Source of the DNA: a virus
Strand: one strand, 5' to 3'
DNA: 24,319 bases
IMG/VR virus record: IMGVR_UViG_3300042863_000202
Location: 1 to 24,319 of that record
A program made the position numbers and the translations under genes. Shown here one piece after another: positions 9,467-17,241 of this stretch; the stretch's first letter is position 1, and the number at the start of each line of letters is the position of its first letter. A model generated the notes under the pieces. The model saw nothing but the letters and a program-made list of their open reading frames with translations. It was not told the DNA's origin and did not search any database.

Positions 9467-9940
9467 TTAAACCTCTTCCATTGAAAGAGATATATTCCAG
9501 TGTGCTTGAATTCCACGCTTGACTAGATCAAATGAGCAGTCTGTAAATGAAACTGTAAAGGCTTCATATCCAGAAGATACCTGGCTTGATCCATCTTTTG
9601 CATAATTAATGCGTATGTCAAACGTACCTTGTCCAAGAGTACTGTTATAAAATGTTCTTAGATCCTCAGCTCCCCAATATCCATCAACTGTTAATGTTCT
9701 ATATGATGGTACTAGATCCCATGAAATATTGAATGCTTCCTTATCTGCAACAAAAAATTTGCGTAAAGTTCCATTTGCCATTCTTTTTGATTGTTGAATT
9801 CGGTTATGGTTTATTGTAAATTGACCTCTATTGTGATCTGTTACTGTATTCCATTTTGTTGTTCCATCCCCGCCATTTGCCGATGCATCTACTCCATATA
9901 TTTGAAGAAGGGCGCCTTTAGGTAATGTTATTGCTGCCAT
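9467..9940 (-). CDS. Distal tail-type minor tail protein
   Basis: A 157-residue protein encoded immediately after the tape measure gene, with its ATG overlapping the tape measure stop (TGATG) and a GGGAG site just upstream. It is beta-rich and aromatic-rich (GYWGAEDLRTFYNSTLGQGTF, residues about 86-106) and ends in a strand reading IQAHWNISLSMEEV, like the closing strand of tube-fold proteins. Distal tail (Dit) or tube-like caps are normally encoded here, and the fold pattern fits. It is short for a Dit with a galectin domain, so it would be a minimal core-only version. No enzymatic residues are visible. Confidence 0.65.
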   Translation of the reverse strand: MAAITLPKGALLQIYGVDASANGGDGTTKWNTVTDHNRGQFTINHNRIQQSKRMANGTLRKFFVADKEAFNISWDLVPSYRTLTVDGYWGAEDLRTFYNSTLGQGTFDIRINYAKDGSSQVSSGYEAFTVSFTDCSFDLVKRGIQAHWNISLSMEEV

Positions 9941-12900
9941 CAGTTATTTCTCCCTCTTCCAATTGTTGCTTCACGAATTCTCATCTTTCTTTCAATTGCA
10001 TTTGCTACGTCATCTGCAGACATGTCTGTTCCATTAAGTGTAACGTTAATATTATACAGGGAGTTTGAAGAAGTTGCCATACCCCCATTATTATATTTAA
10101 CTCTTCCTCCCATTGAATATGCTGGAACATTATAAACTGGACCACCCATAGCCATTTTATTAATTTTATCAAGCATAGGTATTCCTGCTGCCTGGACAGC
10201 TTTTGCACTTACAACATACTCTCCATTTGAGAGCATTGCTGGAATTGAATCAGATGTTCCATTTCCTGCTCCACTTACATATCCGCCCATAGCCATCTTA
10301 GCTCTTTTGCCAACTTTATTAGATACAGAATCAAATTCATATGCAACTCCTACTGAGTCCACCGCATAAGTTTTTCCGTTATATTTAAATAATTTATAGT
10401 TAGAATTAGTATTTGGATCTGTAAATTGTGATTTAGACAACTGTCCTTTTTTAGCAGCTTCTTTAAGTGTTTTTGCTTGTATATTTGGGGTATCTCCGCC
10501 AAATTTATTTGGAGAAGACGAACGGTTATTTGAAACACCCTCCCTAAAAGACTTAACTGCTTCTAAGAATATATCTACAGCACTTGCAAACTTTTGATCT
10601 GCTCCTGCTACAGACTTGCTTGAAAATTCATTCATCATGGCTTGATAAGGACTTATTTCTCTTATCTCTCTGCCATCATAAGCTTTTCTTCCAGTGTATT
10701 CTTTAATTAATGCTTCTGCAGCTGCTTTTTGTGGCCCCCCTGCTTCTTTTGCTTTTTGTAAAACTTCCATCAATGAAGTAATACCTTTTGCTGGAGAGCC
10801 CGCATATTTTGCAACTATATTTGCAACTTGATTCTGTAGTGCCTGTAGCTCAGCTGATTTATCAGCTGTTGCAGATTGTCTTTTGCCAGCAACAGTTAAT
10901 GCTTTTTGCAAAGCATCTTTCTTTGCTTGTAGGGCTTCAATTTCGTCTTCAATCTTTTTACGATCAGCATCAGCCTTATCGTTAATAGAATTTCTAGCTA
11001 ATTCTTTTTCTCTTTCCCCACGTAATTTTTGTATGTTTAATTGCTCTTGTGCCGCCTCTGACATATTTCCAGAAGCCAACGCTTCTTGATATTTAATTTG
11101 CGCTTGCTTTATAGATATTTCGAAACTTTGTGATCTTTCCTGAAGATCTAGTATTGCTAATCTCTTTTTTCTTTCTTCTTCAAGCTTGTCTATTAATTCT
11201 TCTTTATTTTTAATAGCCTCGTCATAAAAAGAACCATCTATCTTTTGTGCATTCTTAGCAGCAGTTGCCGCATCCTCTGCTGCCGCTTTTGCAGCTGCCG
11301 CTGCTTTTCCAAGACTTGTGCTTCCAAGTACTGTTGTTGCTGATCTTTGTAGTTCTTCAAATCCGTTTACTGCGTTTATTGCATCCGTTGCGCTTAGTCC
11401 ACCTATATCTAAGACATCTGACAATCCAGATAAATAAAGTTTATATTTTGCAAAAACACTTAGAATGCTTTCGGAATTGCTAAGCATTGAGCCAAGAACA
11501 AGGTTCTGGCTTTTTAGCTCCTGAAGATTTGCTTGATCAATTTCTTGTGTGGCCGACTTAATCTTTTTAATTTCGTCAATAGTCTTTTTAAATGCATCTG
11601 CTTCTGTAATTTTTTTACCATCAATTTTAGTTCCAATAAGGGAGTTCATGTATGAGTCTAAATTATTTAGTACAGCATCTAGTCCATTTGCAAATTCTTC
11701 TACATTAAATAATGATTTGTCAGAAACTACTTTGCCAAGCAATTTTACAGATGTCATAGCCGCAGATGATCTATCTTCAATTTCTTTAAACCCTGTAGTA
11801 GTTATTGATGCCAGAGCCTGTGAAGATTTATTTGATGCGCTCACAAGAGTGTATATCTTATTTGTTGCTTCTTGGACACTCATTCCAAGTGAGACGTATT
11901 GTGCCTTCATTGCAATTGCTAAATCATTTACTCTTGCAGAGTCTATGTTGTTAAACAAATCTACAGTATCTTTTGCATTAATCTTTGCATCTTTTATGCC
12001 TTCTTTTAGCTGAGTAATTGTTAAATTTAATCCTGGTATTCCAGAAGATGTCATTGATGCATAGTTTGATGCATTTTTAGCTTGAGTTAATTCTAATTCT
12101 TCTCTGACAGCCTTCATTCTTTCTGCTACTGAAGTATATTGAATTCCTACTTCTGCAAGTTGTTCTTTTGTCCCGCCAAACATTGCACGATTAACTTTAC
12201 CAGCGTCTTCGGCATCTTTTTTAAATTTATTAATTAATCCTATAACTCCAGCTAAAGCTCCGATAAGAGCCCCTGGAATTGTTAATCTTCCTAAAATTGT
12301 TGCTACCGTTTTTATAGTAGGCAGAAGTCCAGAAAATCCTTTCATTGCAGTCATCATTGGAAGAATGTTTGACGCCATCATAATTGCTGTTCCAGTATTT
12401 CCGCCAACCATTGATCCAGCAATTCCACCTGCCACTCCAATTCCAAGTTGTGCTGGTAGTCCCATTGGGCCTCTAGACATTCCTTTAGCCAAGCCTCTTC
12501 CGTATGGGTTCTTAAGGCCAGCGATAAATCCACCGCTATTAGGTCTAACATCTCCGCCATCTTGATATCCTGGAATTATCCCGCCTGCGTTTCTAGGAAC
12601 AAATAGCTCTGGACCATTTTCTCCAACAAGGTAAGGTCTTCCAGCATTTACTGGACCACCCATTGCACGAGCACCATCTACAACTGTTTCTAGTTGCAGT
12701 CTTCCATTTTCTGCATTAACAATTCTAAACTTTCCGCCAAATATAGATTCTTTTTCTGATCTTGAATTGTTTGTTAGCTTTTGTCCAAATGGTGCCGCAA
12801 ATTTTGCTTGTGGGAAAATTTCTGAAGATGGCACAACATTTCTATTTTTTACTAAAGCTTCTAATAAAATTGATTTACCTTCAGTGTCTGCTCTAAATCC

Positions 12901-15900
12901 TGGAGCAAACATTGAGGCAACGCCTCTGTCTGAACTCCATGAAGAGCGACGCATAATAAATTCTTTTCCAATTAAACCTGAATAATCTCCAGTTGCTCTT
13001 GCTTGTGTAAGAGCATCTAAAATATTTTGTGGCAGTGGGTTTGATCTATTATTGCTTAAACGAATTCCTCTATAAAGATTTCCACTAAATTTCTTTGATA
13101 AAGTTTTTATTGCTTCTGTAGCACCTGGAGTATTTAATATTCCATAGTTGCCTTCCATATATTGACGAAGTATGTATTTACCACGATCTTCTAATGTTCC
13201 AACTGGGAATCCTGGAACATGCGCCATACGTGCAAATTGTGGATCGTTATAAGCAATTTCTATAGTTCTTGCAAATGGGTCCTTCTCAAAGGGATCGTGA
13301 TGTGATTTTGATCCAACATGCATTGCTCTACCAATTTGTAATGGTCCATGTAATGGATCTTGGTTTCCTAATGTATATTGCATTCCTTGTGGATAGAATT
13401 GTTTCTTTGGCTTCCACTTAGAAGTTAGTTTATTAATTATTGATGAAGATAATGGCTTTACAATTCTTCCACGCATATTACTTCCAAAGTATTGCATACC
13501 TGGAACCATTCCGCCCATATTATATTTTCCATTTTGAACTGGAGCTGGAATACTTCTTCCGCCTTGTGATGTAACTGCTCCGCCCATCATTGGTACAATT
13601 CCCCCAGAATTCATTCCAACCCAGTTGTTTGTTGAAGCTTTAAAGTTAGATGCAATTGATTCTTCTGCTGAATCAAATACTATTTTTGCAAAATCTTGTT
13701 CGTCAATTAAACCACGGTTTGACAATACTTTATAGTTTATTCTATTTGCTGCTCCTGATAATATATTATTTACAACAGCTGGAGGCAGCCCAAGCTCGTG
13801 ATGAAGGTGCATTGCAAGGTCGGTTAAGTTTCCTGGACCAATTTTTACCCAATCTGCAGCAGTTGCAGTTTTGTCATTTAGCTTTTCGTTAAAATGTTGA
13901 GATCCTTTAACTGACATTGCTGGAAGAACTCTGTATACTTTATCTGGGTCTATTTTGCCAGTTGCTCCTAAAGCAATTAATTCTGAGCCTTTTAAATCTG
14001 GTGTAGAAGCTGTTCCTTTTGGTAAACCGTATGTATCTAAAAACTCTTCACTTACTGCATGAATATTTACTTCTGACTGTCTTTTATCAATTTTGCCGTC
14101 TGCGCCACGAACTCTCTTTAATGGCCTTGCCCCGTATAATCTAGAAACTTCTCTGCCAGCCTTAGATTTAAAAAACCTAGGAGAAGAAAAATCAGAATAT
14201 CCGAATCCACCTGGTCTTGCCCCAGGTGTTGAAAATGCATTAAATCCACTTGTTCTTTGATGCCCCTTGCTGCTCATTGTAACGCCTCTAGAGGCACCTA
14301 CTGCAATCATTTTATTTCTTATGCTTGCAATTACTCCGCCTAGCTGTCTACCTTGAACTGGAACAATCATAGCCTGTCCATCATTAAGGGCTCTCATTCC
14401 ATCAGGATCTTGCTGTGCAACACCCTTTCTGATTACAAACTCACCTGGAGTAAGCATTGCTGGAACGGTATCAGTATTTCCAGATCCTGGAACCTGATCT
14501 CCATTATTATAGAATACCTTTCCACCCATGTTAAATCTTTTTGGTCTTGTTGTTTCTATTGAGTATGGTGCACCGTAAGTTTTAACTCCTAGGGCTCCCG
14601 CAATCTTATTTATAAGAGTTCTATTTCTTGGTCTTGTTAACTCTTTCATATTAGCTTTTCCAGTTACTGGATCAAACGCTGGTTGATTTACAATTGGAAG
14701 TTGAGTTAAATTGATTGTTCTTCCTTGTGCAGTAGCAACTCCTGTTGCTGCCTGCCCCATCATTGCTTCAATCTGTTGGTTTAATGCAATAATTTTTGTT
14801 CTTGCCTGATCAACAGTTATTTTAGACGCTTGAAGCTCTGCAACTATCTGCGCTGACTCTGTTGCCGCTAAACTAGTTATTCTTGACATCTCTGGAAGAA
14901 GTGCTTGATATGAATCTGACAATGAGGTGGTAATTAATCCAGTAGCCGCTATTTCTTTTTTAAGTATTGCTATTTCTTGTTGTGACTGCATTGCTAGTGC
15001 GCCAGTCATTGAATGGAATTTAGCAGCTTCTTCTGCAACAATTCCTGTTGAAACTCCACGTATTGAGCTGACTCCTTCTATCTTTGGTAGATCGCCAGAC
15101 ATATACATTTGTGGGTTATTGCTTATTTTTTGATTAACTAATGGTGCTCCTGGAACAATGCCAAATATTGTTTGTGCAGCTTTTTGTTCTGGTGTCATCT
15201 GGCTTACTGGATTTGGATGAGAAAAAGATCTAGTATCTCTATCGCTTACAAGTGGATGGCTTGGAACAACTTCTCTTGCACCACCCATTAAAGTATTTCC
15301 CGCAATTGTTGATATTACTGGTGTTGCTGATATTGTTCCAGAACTTGCTTTTCTAGTTAGCTCATCTAGTTCTAAATTTAAATTGGCTAGCGCTTGTCCC
15401 AAAATGTTTGCTGCTTTTGCATCGCTATAGAATGTTGTTTCCATAAGATTTCCAGCTTTTTGAGCTGCTAAAATTTCAGGAGTTAATAACTTCCAGCCTT
15501 CTCCGCCTTTAAACAATGCCTTAAAATGTGCAACTCCCTTGATAATATATCCAAAGAAGTTAGCAAGAACACCAGTTAACATAATTGCAGGACCTGCTAG
15601 TGCTGTTAGCCCACCTACTAATGTTAAAATCTTTTTAATTGGGTCGGGAAGTTTATTATTAAATTCAATTACCTTGTCAATTAAGTTAATAAAGAATGTT
15701 TGAATATTAAGGAACGCATCTCCAACTCCTGCAAGATCTGCCTTTAGTCCTTCTAATGCTCTACGGTATTTACCAGAAGCCGATTCTGTAATTTGTGCTA
15801 ATTCTCGTCCAGCTACATTTGCTAAATCTGATGCACTAGCATTCATTAAATCTAAAACTTCTAGTGTTTGGCTTCCTTGTTTTCCTAGGTTATCAAATAA

Positions 15901-17241
15901 GGCTGACAATCTAGCAAACTGAAACTTTCCAAATAGTTGTTCAATTGCTTTTGATTTAGTTAATGGGTCAAGTGTGTCTAGTGCCTTTTGTAATTCTAAT
16001 ATTGTTGCTGTTAAATTTCCAGCATTGCTTGTTACGATTCCACCTAAATCTATTCCAAATCCTGCAAACATTTCCTTTGCAACTTTAGTTGGGTTAATAA
16101 GAGAAGCTAAGGATGACTTGATTGCATTTGCGCCTTCTGATGCATTGATTCCGCCTTCTTTCATAGCAGTTAAATAAAGAGCTAGGTCTTGTACACTTCC
16201 GCCTAAAGACTTTACAACTGGTCCAGCTTTTGGAATTGCTTCAACTAAATCTGCAAGGCTAGTTGAGGTTTGGTTTTCAACTGCGTTGAGGAAGTTAATC
16301 GACTCAGAAAGCTGTTGTGTATTTTGATTAAATGCTGTTTGAATTGCAAGCGTAGCCTTCATTGCTTCTTGACGATCAACTTCTCCAAGGACTGCTAGCC
16401 TTGTTGTTTCTCTAGTTGAGTTAAGAAGATCTTCTCCTTGTTTTCCAGTTGCCGCAATATCCGCTGCTAAAGCTATAGTCTCGGTATAAGATGCACCGTA
16501 TTGTTGTGCTAAATCTTTTGCTGTTGCTGCAACTTCTTTTCTAATTTTTCCTAGCTCTACAGCAGAAGTTTGTGCAACCCCACCATAAACTTTAGTAAGT
16601 CTAACTAGTTGTTCGTCTGCGACTCTAAATGCATCTGCTGCTGCTTTGCCAAATGCTGCGATTGGAACAGTAAGTCCGACGGTTAACTGACGTCCTGCCC
16701 ACTGAGTATTCTTACCCCAGTTAATTAATTGCACTCCGCCATCTTGAATTACCTTATTCATGATCTGCATTTCTTGCTTAAGCAGTGCAGCCTTATTCTT
16801 TGTTACGTCCAGTCCTCTTGGGACCTGTACGTTAAATTGCATTAACCCTTCAGCATTTCTGCCTAATGGTTGAAGAATAGAATTTTGTAATTGAACTTGT
16901 TGTTTTGCTAAATCTCTAATTAAACCGCCTGCAGTTTTTGAATGATTTTGCCATGTGCCATAATAGTCTTTTAACTTAAGTTTTCCAGAATCTAAATTCT
17001 TTCCAAACTTATCTACATCGGAAGACAGGCTTACAAAGTGTGTGGAGAACTGCCCTGTGCTTCTTAATGTTGAAGCAAAATTCTGTTGAATCTTTGCTGC
17101 TTGCAATGCAAGCGCTTTATCAGTTGTTGTAAGAGTTTGTTTTAATTGGGCAAGATTAGTAGTAACCTTATTGACATTTGCAATTAGATCTGAAAAGTCA
17201 GCATTAGCGACTATATTCGTGACTATGTTTTCATCAGCCAT
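9940..17241 (-). CDS. Tape measure protein with embedded cargo domains
   Basis: A 2,433-residue protein, the longest gene here. Residues about 205-420 match the conserved tape measure core (PhageMin_Tail type), including AQQYGASYTETIALAADIAATG and SLADLVEAIPKAGPVVKSLG. A hydrophobic stretch at about 535-580 (LVGGLTALAGPAIMLTGVLA) and another at about 1594-1672 are likely membrane-inserting. A long charged coiled coil occupies about 2014-2148. Gly/Met-rich linker motifs recur near 905, 1210, 1527 and 2318. Between them lie an unknown segment (985-1209) and an ADP-ribosyltransferase-like domain (1290-1515). Tape measure proteins set tail length at roughly 0.15 nm per helical residue, implying about 365 nm at most, less if the inserts do not count. 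It starts nine bases after the chaperone ORF, with GGGG upstream, and overlaps the next gene. Confidence 0.95.
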   Translation of the reverse strand: MADENIVTNIVANADFSDLIANVNKVTTNLAQLKQTLTTTDKALALQAAKIQQNFASTLRSTGQFSTHFVSLSSDVDKFGKNLDSGKLKLKDYYGTWQNHSKTAGGLIRDLAKQQVQLQNSILQPLGRNAEGLMQFNVQVPRGLDVTKNKAALLKQEMQIMNKVIQDGGVQLINWGKNTQWAGRQLTVGLTVPIAAFGKAAADAFRVADEQLVRLTKVYGGVAQTSAVELGKIRKEVAATAKDLAQQYGASYTETIALAADIAATGKQGEDLLNSTRETTRLAVLGEVDRQEAMKATLAIQTAFNQNTQQLSESINFLNAVENQTSTSLADLVEAIPKAGPVVKSLGGSVQDLALYLTAMKEGGINASEGANAIKSSLASLINPTKVAKEMFAGFGIDLGGIVTSNAGNLTATILELQKALDTLDPLTKSKAIEQLFGKFQFARLSALFDNLGKQGSQTLEVLDLMNASASDLANVAGRELAQITESASGKYRRALEGLKADLAGVGDAFLNIQTFFINLIDKVIEFNNKLPDPIKKILTLVGGLTALAGPAIMLTGVLANFFGYIIKGVAHFKALFKGGEGWKLLTPEILAAQKAGNLMETTFYSDAKAANILGQALANLNLELDELTRKASSGTISATPVISTIAGNTLMGGAREVVPSHPLVSDRDTRSFSHPNPVSQMTPEQKAAQTIFGIVPGAPLVNQKISNNPQMYMSGDLPKIEGVSSIRGVSTGIVAEEAAKFHSMTGALAMQSQQEIAILKKEIAATGLITTSLSDSYQALLPEMSRITSLAATESAQIVAELQASKITVDQARTKIIALNQQIEAMMGQAATGVATAQGRTINLTQLPIVNQPAFDPVTGKANMKELTRPRNRTLINKIAGALGVKTYGAPYSIETTRPKRFNMGGKVFYNNGDQVPGSGNTDTVPAMLTPGEFVIRKGVAQQDPDGMRALNDGQAMIVPVQGRQLGGVIASIRNKMIAVGASRGVTMSSKGHQRTSGFNAFSTPGARPGGFGYSDFSSPRFFKSKAGREVSRLYGARPLKRVRGADGKIDKRQSEVNIHAVSEEFLDTYGLPKGTASTPDLKGSELIALGATGKIDPDKVYRVLPAMSVKGSQHFNEKLNDKTATAADWVKIGPGNLTDLAMHLHHELGLPPAVVNNILSGAANRINYKVLSNRGLIDEQDFAKIVFDSAEESIASNFKASTNNWVGMNSGGIVPMMGGAVTSQGGRSIPAPVQNGKYNMGGMVPGMQYFGSNMRGRIVKPLSSSIINKLTSKWKPKKQFYPQGMQYTLGNQDPLHGPLQIGRAMHVGSKSHHDPFEKDPFARTIEIAYNDPQFARMAHVPGFPVGTLEDRGKYILRQYMEGNYGILNTPGATEAIKTLSKKFSGNLYRGIRLSNNRSNPLPQNILDALTQARATGDYSGLIGKEFIMRRSSWSSDRGVASMFAPGFRADTEGKSILLEALVKNRNVVPSSEIFPQAKFAAPFGQKLTNNSRSEKESIFGGKFRIVNAENGRLQLETVVDGARAMGGPVNAGRPYLVGENGPELFVPRNAGGIIPGYQDGGDVRPNSGGFIAGLKNPYGRGLAKGMSRGPMGLPAQLGIGVAGGIAGSMVGGNTGTAIMMASNILPMMTAMKGFSGLLPTIKTVATILGRLTIPGALIGALAGVIGLINKFKKDAEDAGKVNRAMFGGTKEQLAEVGIQYTSVAERMKAVREELELTQAKNASNYASMTSSGIPGLNLTITQLKEGIKDAKINAKDTVDLFNNIDSARVNDLAIAMKAQYVSLGMSVQEATNKIYTLVSASNKSSQALASITTTGFKEIEDRSSAAMTSVKLLGKVVSDKSLFNVEEFANGLDAVLNNLDSYMNSLIGTKIDGKKITEADAFKKTIDEIKKIKSATQEIDQANLQELKSQNLVLGSMLSNSESILSVFAKYKLYLSGLSDVLDIGGLSATDAINAVNGFEELQRSATTVLGSTSLGKAAAAAKAAAEDAATAAKNAQKIDGSFYDEAIKNKEELIDKLEEERKKRLAILDLQERSQSFEISIKQAQIKYQEALASGNMSEAAQEQLNIQKLRGEREKELARNSINDKADADRKKIEDEIEALQAKKDALQKALTVAGKRQSATADKSAELQALQNQVANIVAKYAGSPAKGITSLMEVLQKAKEAGGPQKAAAEALIKEYTGRKAYDGREIREISPYQAMMNEFSSKSVAGADQKFASAVDIFLEAVKSFREGVSNNRSSSPNKFGGDTPNIQAKTLKEAAKKGQLSKSQFTDPNTNSNYKLFKYNGKTYAVDSVGVAYEFDSVSNKVGKRAKMAMGGYVSGAGNGTSDSIPAMLSNGEYVVSAKAVQAAGIPMLDKINKMAMGGPVYNVPAYSMGGRVKYNNGGMATSSNSLYNINVTLNGTDMSADDVANAIERKMRIREATIGRGRNN
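10057..10290 (-). repeat. Tape measure linker motif, copies near the C-terminus
   Basis: Residues about 2318-2395: MGGYVSGAGNGTSDSIPAML, SNGEYVVSAKAVQAAG, then MGGPVY and MGGRVKYNNGG. It repeats the P-A-M-L-x-x-G-E-[FY]-V core of copy 1 and lies just before the C-terminal end. Confidence 0.6.
12547..12663 (-). repeat. Tape measure linker motif, copy 3
   Basis: Residues about 1527-1565: MGGPVNAGRPYLVGENGPELFVP, then NAGGIIPGYQDGG. The GRPYLVGENGPELFVP form is a familiar tape measure motif. It closes the ADP-ribosyltransferase-like region. Confidence 0.65.
12697..13374 (-). other. ADP-ribosyltransferase-like domain inside the tape measure protein
   Basis: Tape measure residues about 1290-1515 show the three signatures of the R-S-E class of mono-ADP-ribosyltransferases (VIP2/C3/ADPrib_exo_Tox type) in order and at plausible spacing. 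These are NLYRGIRL with Arg1391, RRSSWSSDRGVASMFA with Ser1434-x-Ser1436, and SEKESIFGGKFRIV with Glu1496-x-Glu1498. The helix before the Arg (YILRQYMEGNYGILN, then a second helix) also matches the conserved helical region ahead of YRG in VIP2-like enzymes. Such enzymes transfer ADP-ribose from NAD+ to a protein or nucleic acid target. The target, and whether the domain is active, cannot be read from sequence. Confidence 0.72.
13477..13614 (-). repeat. Tape measure linker motif, copy 2
   Basis: Residues about 1210-1255: MNSGGIVPMMGGAVTSQGG followed by a Pro/Asn-rich stretch and NMGGMVPG. It separates the unrecognised insert from the ADP-ribosyltransferase-like domain. Confidence 0.5.
13615..14289 (-). 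other. Unrecognised globular insert in the tape measure protein
   Basis: Residues about 985-1209 are unlike the surrounding helical tape measure. The segment has a basic, Gly/Phe/Ser-rich start (FSTPGARPGGFGYSDF), then a folded-looking part with VNIHAVSEEFLDTYGLPKG, KIDPDKVYRVLPAM, DLAMHLHHELGLPP (His1145, His1147, His1148) and a helical C-terminus. It is bordered by linker motifs at 905 and 1210. I do not recognise a family. It may be a second cargo domain or an N-terminal partner of the ADP-ribosyltransferase domain. Confidence 0.5.
14407..14529 (-). repeat. Tape measure linker motif, copy 1
   Basis: Residues about 905-945: MGG, a short aromatic/Asn-Gly turn, then NTDTVPAMLTPGEFVIRKG. The P-A-M-L-x-x-G-E-[FY]-V core returns at 2318-2395. 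Confidence 0.6.

Follow-up and report, generated by a model that had tools for sequence, protein, structure and literature searches.

Tape measure gene and the domain embedded in it

The window, meaning the whole stretch of DNA analysed here, is the complete virus record IMGVR_UViG_3300042863_000202 (24,319 bases), and its larger open reading frames (ORFs) lie on the minus strand. The largest of them, at 9940-17241, is a tape measure protein of 2433 residues. Within this protein, residues 1290-1521 form a discrete domain for which fold and motif make a strong case as a predicted ADP-ribosyltransferase (ART). The parts of the gene that bear on this assignment are listed here, with model confidence given as the predicted local distance difference test score (pLDDT).

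9940..17241, minus strand: tape measure protein, 2433 residues (PhageMin_Tail, E 1.7e-28; phrog_10030, tape measure, E 1.8e-121)
15928..16524, minus strand: PhageMin_Tail domain, residues 240-438 (Pfam profile match)
13198..13374, minus strand: conserved N-terminal extension of the putative ART module, residues 1290-1348 (alignment and model; partly low pLDDT, yet with invariant residues)
12679..13197, minus strand: predicted ART catalytic core, residues 1349-1521 (AlphaFold2 models, Foldseek, VIA-align)
13069..13071, minus strand: Arg1391 of the YRG motif, in the first core strand (position, alignment, model, conservation)
12934..12942, minus strand: Ser1434-Trp-Ser1436, the SxS motif (position, alignment, conservation)
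12748..12756, minus strand: Glu1496-Lys-Glu1498, the ExE motif, with Glu1498 as the predicted catalytic glutamate (position, alignment, conservation)

That the carrier is a genuine tape measure protein, as an earlier note on this DNA had it, is confirmed by the phrog_10030 match, by a PhageMin_Tail score of 100.3 bits against a cut-off of 33.2, and by its place in the tail gene order. A PHROGs scan of 10 window ORFs recovered, among others, a major head protein, a head-tail adaptor, an Ig-domain protein, minor tail proteins and a tail spike. The gene order resembles that annotated in Streptomyces phage Bmoc, which runs from capsid and adaptor through an Ig-domain major tail protein and two tail assembly chaperones to the tape measure and minor tail proteins. 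Related versions of the first 560 residues occur in 241 phage records (Streptomyces, 127; Gordonia, 99; Rhodococcus, 8; Tsukamurella, 6; Nocardia, 1). Because all of these records are named for actinobacterial hosts, the host is probably an actinobacterium. The window itself is a stretch of head and tail genes from an uncultured tailed phage.

The three motifs that the earlier note had read in the tape measure protein, YRG, S-W-S and E-K-E, are present with exactly the residues and coordinates that it gave. Residues 1290 and 1515 are encoded at 13372-13374 and 12697-12699, Ser1434 and Ser1436 at 12940-12942 and 12934-12936, and Glu1496 and Glu1498 at 12754-12756 and 12748-12750. In the whole protein, YRG and SWS each occur once and EKE twice. 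An ordered pattern of [YFH]RG, SxS and ExE with set spacings, composed only after the motifs had been seen, has a single occurrence in the protein and is found at least once in 21 of 2000 shuffles of it. Given these counts and the invariance of the motifs in relatives, we rejected a chance origin.

Two AlphaFold2 models of the domain were made, one from 12 sequences (pLDDT 65.8) and a second from 35 (pLDDT 80.5; predicted template modelling score 0.73), in which roughly the first 30 residues are poorly predicted. When the second model was compared with the PDB using Foldseek, rows 1 to 14 were all ARTs, headed by the Vis toxin at E 2.8e-5, and the first unrelated structure followed at row 15 with E 0.89. 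VIA-align, where a Z of 7 to 8 is typical of models that have no clear match, gave ARTs for 50 of 50 among the matches listed with either model. Z rose to 10.5 for the second (root-mean-square deviation 3.1 over 131 residues) and to 10.3 for the first, which included VIP2 at 10.0; actin-targeting ARTs were also present among the structural matches. Against viral models, 20 matches at E <= 0.001 comprised 4 named ARTs, 1 ADP-ribosyl hydrolase, 3 head proteins and 12 without an informative name. The fold of the R-S-E superfamily, whose absence from a confident structure would have told against the earlier note, is therefore the one that the predicted models display.

The motifs also fall where such a fold would place them. 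In ARTs of the R-S-E class, Arg, SxS and ExE usually sit at set positions on strands. In the second model (model numbering), Arg1391 lies close to where strand 94-105 ends, SxS at the end of strand 138-147 and Glu1498 at the start of strand 209-222; the three motifs follow in this order in 42 of 43 ORFs as well as in the model. The earlier note had placed a helix pair before YRG. Helices do precede the Arg strand, but there are three of them (61-73, 77-81 and 85-90). Likewise, its span of about 1290-1515 was correct at the start, with the end nearer 1521. We base the ART call on this fold together with the invariant residues, not on a sequence score.

Conservation and possible exchange of the module

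Relatives of the domain were gathered from viral contigs in two overlapping searches (14 loci in one, 50 in the other). Arg1391, Ser1434, Trp1435, Ser1436, Glu1496 and Glu1498 are invariant across an alignment of 35 non-redundant ART domains, of which the other 34 are 40-84% identical to that of the window. Of 43 distinct tape measure ORFs that carry the ART, 42 agree at all six of these positions and the 43rd is incomplete (cut off), so the conservation of Arg, Ser and Glu on which the earlier note depended is upheld. This set was partly selected for the motifs, because FIMRRSSW and ExE..GG were among the patterns that found most of its loci. Twelve complete ART-bearing proteins were reached through the N-terminus alone, with no motif selection, and all six positions are kept in 12 of 12; one of these proteins is identical to that of the window both in its tape measure N-terminus, the first 560 residues, and in its ART. 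Ser1434, previously proposed as the serine of the NAD+ pocket, is invariant, but a weak global profile alignment sets Ser1436 instead against the leading Ser of the STS motif in phage VIP2-like ARTs. Since both serines are invariant and the alignment is weak, the pocket serine may be either one.

Substitution patterns point to constraint. The ratio of nonsynonymous to synonymous change (dN/dS) in the ART was 0.085-0.256 in 13 of 13 pairs, compared with 0.014-0.178 for the first 560 residues (12 computable pairs), and the ART value was the higher of the two in 10 of 12 pairs. Some of these ratios are rough because several pairs have a high proportion of synonymous differences (0.5-0.6). The ART module is under purifying selection, usually less strictly than the tape measure core.

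The earlier note had also proposed comparing related tape measure proteins for presence of the insert, and this comparison shows the module to be optional. A search with residues 1-560 alone, of which we took the best 80 of 273 candidate loci, yielded 71 distinct proteins. Thirty-six were complete with both of the anchors described below; the other 35 were left out since they run off the contig, are short or have no C-terminal anchor. The ART is present in 12 of the 36 complete proteins and absent from 24, and 6 of the 35 left out show the whole or part of it. The region in which it lies is bounded as follows.

12517..14526, minus strand: variable slot, residues 906-1575 (measured between two anchor queries)
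15529..15633, minus strand: hydrophobic segment, residues 537-571 (Kyte-Doolittle, window 19)
12223..12309, minus strand: hydrophobic segment, residues 1645-1673 (Kyte-Doolittle, window 19)

The outer limits of the slot are fixed by the anchor queries (residues 561-905 and 1576-2130) and are not natural edges. Spacing between the anchors ranges over 299-1077 residues in 58 of 59 stop-to-stop ORFs of at least 1500 residues, the 59th lacking the second anchor. The ART sits between the two hydrophobic segments. Among relatives without the ART, the two nearest are L070 and L073; their similarity to the window ends at residues 955 and 943, and a long C-terminal match resumes at 1475 and 1553.

Three pairs illustrate how the module may have moved. 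Over the first 560 residues L070 and L069 each share 98% identity with the window, and only L069 has the ART. L074 and L076 are nearly identical over those residues (dN 0.009), whereas their ARTs are only 70% identical. Conversely, the ARTs of L034 and L037 are 85% identical, and their residues 1000-1200 only 16-28%. These contrasts fit module exchange within one gene.

Two further observations concern the same gene. In contigs L053 (4984-9456) and L063 (6034-14821), two ORFs make up the tape measure frame and the second contains the ART; the split reflects either a sequencing error or a real break. The window also contains a second variable stretch, at about 10342-10941 (residues 2101-2300), where identity to L069 is 28-31% compared with 98% over the first 560 residues.

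Predicted role and competing explanations

Both halves of this arrangement have precedents. ARTs packaged in virions modify host RNA polymerase (PMC9503650), and tape measure proteins are ejected and inserted into the membrane at infection (PMC13277306). A survey of 21,191 viral proteomes describes fusions of ARTs to MuF, portal or other head proteins; the word "tape" is absent from its main text (PMC9503650). ARTs in polyvalent proteins are treated in PMC5512222, whose accessible part does not use "tape measure", and MuF-ART fusions are described in Microbacterium phages (PMC7302621). In the openly licensed literature, as far as its accessible text goes, we found no ART inside a tape measure protein; the two appeared there only as separate genes or topics. 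A virion-packaged ART is thus already known, including fused to head proteins, and we take the tape measure carrier to be new.

The closest known systems resemble the window ART in part. T4 Alt is likewise an ART that travels with the virion and is presumed to modify host proteins early (PMC9503650, PMC5512222), but it is a separate head protein injected with the DNA, whereas the window ART is built into the interior of a tape measure protein. Phage ARTs of the Alt/VIP2 type that are joined to MuF or portal, for example in Microbacterium phages Percival and Goodman, are also fused to a virion structural protein and also occur in actinobacterial phages. In Percival and Goodman the ART occupies the C-terminal end of a head protein, in contrast to an internal position in a tail protein. 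No head protein appears in the Pfam or PHROGs tables of the tape measure ORF, and the window domain does not belong with the MuF-fused polymorphic toxins, in which the ART follows a MuF head protein C-terminally. Percival and Goodman score 72.8 and 78.6 bits against PF03496 (ADPrib_exo_Tox; cut-off 23.4), while the window domain has no match to this family. Finally, Sle1 and Tme, effectors of actinobacterial contractile injection systems (CIS), are tape measure-like proteins with a variable functional domain (PMC13277306). They serve bacterial nanomachines, and the Sle1 type varies C-terminally, whereas the window holds a phage tape measure protein with an internal ART. Some tape measure proteins contain peptidoglycan-degrading domains, enzymes directed at the cell wall as the phage penetrates it. 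An ART differs from these in its need for NAD+ and so would presumably work in the cytoplasm.

We think it rather probable that the domain is an optional R-S-ExE ART module that is ejected with the tape measure protein to modify host proteins; its packaging, ejection, refolding, activity and target are what we infer. The module would be packed inside the tail tube as part of the tape measure protein, which at infection would leave the tail and insert into or cross the host membrane. The ART would then refold on the cytoplasmic side, where NAD+ is, and transfer ADP-ribose to host proteins in favor of the phage, much as T4 Alt does after release from the head. An ExE motif suggests arginine as the acceptor, and the predicted specificity is accordingly for arginine; RNA polymerase could be proposed as a target only by analogy with T4 Alt. 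If the ART is active, the module would have to reach the cytoplasm, NAD+ being cytoplasmic. The earlier note's reading is supported in part, for the ART fold, the intact R-S-ExE residues and the genuine tape measure carrier; catalysis, delivery by ejection and the targets that it suggested are putative.

Several results weigh against this interpretation. A domain of about 230 residues would have to unfold or fit in the tail tube. The query-normalised template modelling scores of Foldseek rows 1 to 14 are low (0.33-0.40). Against Pfam, the window domain matched 0 families at E <= 10, and a PDB sequence search gave no match. PF03496 was detected in 2 of the 35 aligned ART domains, with a best E of 0.081, and in 0 of 8 members in a repeat. 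Local profile-profile comparison with ten phage VIP2-like ARTs gave E 0.25 (score 14.8) and was outscored by 7 of 30 column shuffles and by the reversed profile (E 0.16). For the core alone five settings were compared, and the best result, from a global one with E 0.012, pairs SxS and ExE but not Arg. Moreover, in 14 related contigs, which may be fragments, neither ADP-ribosylglycohydrolase (0 of 14) nor Macro (0 of 14) was found, while positive controls were detected; the ART is therefore backed by no partner gene. PF03496 also gave 0 of 14, a count that carries no weight because its control was detected nowhere.

Further searches were made by sequence. The window domain does not reach the curated cut-off of PF03496, in which it is not filed, and a PHROGs search with it gave nothing significant. 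Phage records held no match at E <= 1, and in bacterial genomes 55 stretches fitted a search pattern, none of which codes for a relative. The comparison of the core comprised three local and two global settings; shuffles did as well in 8, 9 and 12 of 40 for the local settings, and in 0 and 1 of 40 for the global ones (E 0.012). We regard the global profile match to phage VIP2-like ARTs as marginal and do not rest a family assignment on it. The earlier note's proposed check against ART families therefore gave a divided answer, in which Foldseek matched ARTs and sequence profiles fell short of significance.

Three other explanations are less likely. The tape measure protein is synthesised in a cytoplasm that contains NAD+, with no sign that the ART is silent there, and the purifying selection on it would fit equally well with action in the producing cell, where fresh protein could modify proteins of the host or the phage late in infection, either before the tail is assembled or while it is. 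T4 ModA and ModB act from inside the producing cell in this manner. We nevertheless hold this to be unlikely for the window ART, since a purely intracellular enzyme need not belong to a tape measure protein. A fold retained as a non-catalytic spacer or binding module, which would set tail length or help membrane passage, would account for the weak profile scores to known ARTs and for an inter-anchor length so variable (299-1077 residues) that content may count as length alone. A spacer needs no triad, however, and since Arg, the two Ser and the two Glu are the same in all 42 ORFs that could be scored, and dN/dS is low, we hold this to be quite improbable.

VIP2-like ARTs of freshwater phages have been proposed as toxins against protist grazers that engulf infected cells (PMC6802176). 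As far as the accessible text goes, that work describes 24 freshwater phages with ARTs, Actinobacteria being the predicted hosts of some, and does not state the carrier protein. The VIP2 and actin-targeting ARTs among our structural matches would suit such a role, but ARTs of this one fold act on many different targets, and from within a tape measure protein the way into bacteria is evident, with no such way into eukaryotes. We give this explanation very little credence.

Should the module instead be ejected to modify host proteins, as we favor, it would offer a handle on a process that is hard to observe, namely the extent, if any, to which a tape measure protein reaches the host cytoplasm. 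With an NAD+-requiring enzyme built in, entry would become testable, because host proteins ADP-ribosylated early after adsorption would report its arrival. It would also widen the packing of early host-modifying enzymes by phages from the head to the tail ruler, in parallel with the tape measure-derived effectors of bacterial injection machines.

Other parts of the slot

The rest of the slot contains the following features.

14416..14526, minus strand: Gly-rich linker with motif DTVPAMLTPGEFV, residues 906-942 (sequence)
13621..14103, minus strand: first slot domain, "module 1", residues 1047-1207 (relatives occur in both ART-bearing and ART-less tape measure proteins)
13330..13365, minus strand: NQDPLHGPLQIG motif, residues 1293-1304 (pattern NxDPxHGxLxIG)
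12568..12660, minus strand: linker GGPVNAGRPYLVGENGPELFVP..., residues 1528-1558, after the ART (PYLVGE motif; the stretch matches tape measure PHROGs)

Module 1 has no match in Pfam. As a second ART it found no support (hhalign E 0.6 against the alignment of 35 tape measure ART domains and 0.41 against phage VIP2-like ARTs), and neither it nor the ART was found in the Bmoc tape measure protein. The idea of many distinct first-slot families was not borne out either; single linkage joined 46 of 48 slot segments, suggesting that most first slot domains belong to a single broad group that has diverged.

NxDPxHGxLxIG, just upstream of the ART core, is present in 43 of 43 ART-bearing tape measure ORFs and in 0 of 55 other distinct ones, a comparison in which many of the 55 end earlier and the motif itself belongs to the profile used for calling the ART. 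The stretch that holds it is modelled poorly, and the motif could serve for processing or docking. In 30 of the 43 ORFs with the ART, an exact PYLVGE follows 15 residues past it.

The 48 slots were scanned with Pfam and NCBIfam at E <= 0.1 and with PHROGs at E <= 0.01, and the families matched included no recognised effector and no peptidase; the window's own tape measure protein has one identified effector domain, the ART. Polyvalent proteins (Iyer et al. 2017) combine several distinct effector domains, often along with a metallopeptidase, in a single ejected protein. We put forward only tentatively, and with more doubt than belief, that in this phage group the tape measure protein is a general carrier of injected effectors, with modules including the ART swapped into its variable region at Gly-rich linkers by recombination. 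If so, tail length and injected payload would be set by the same gene, and each infection would bring a host-modifying enzyme in several copies, before the DNA or together with it.

Among non-redundant ART-less proteins, L109, L116, L106, L123, L130, L121 and L122 have slots of 906-1069 residues with large extra domains. Near the tail genes of the window, a metallophosphoesterase-like gene (phrog_221, E 1.5e-43) occupies 2-652 and is cut by the record end.

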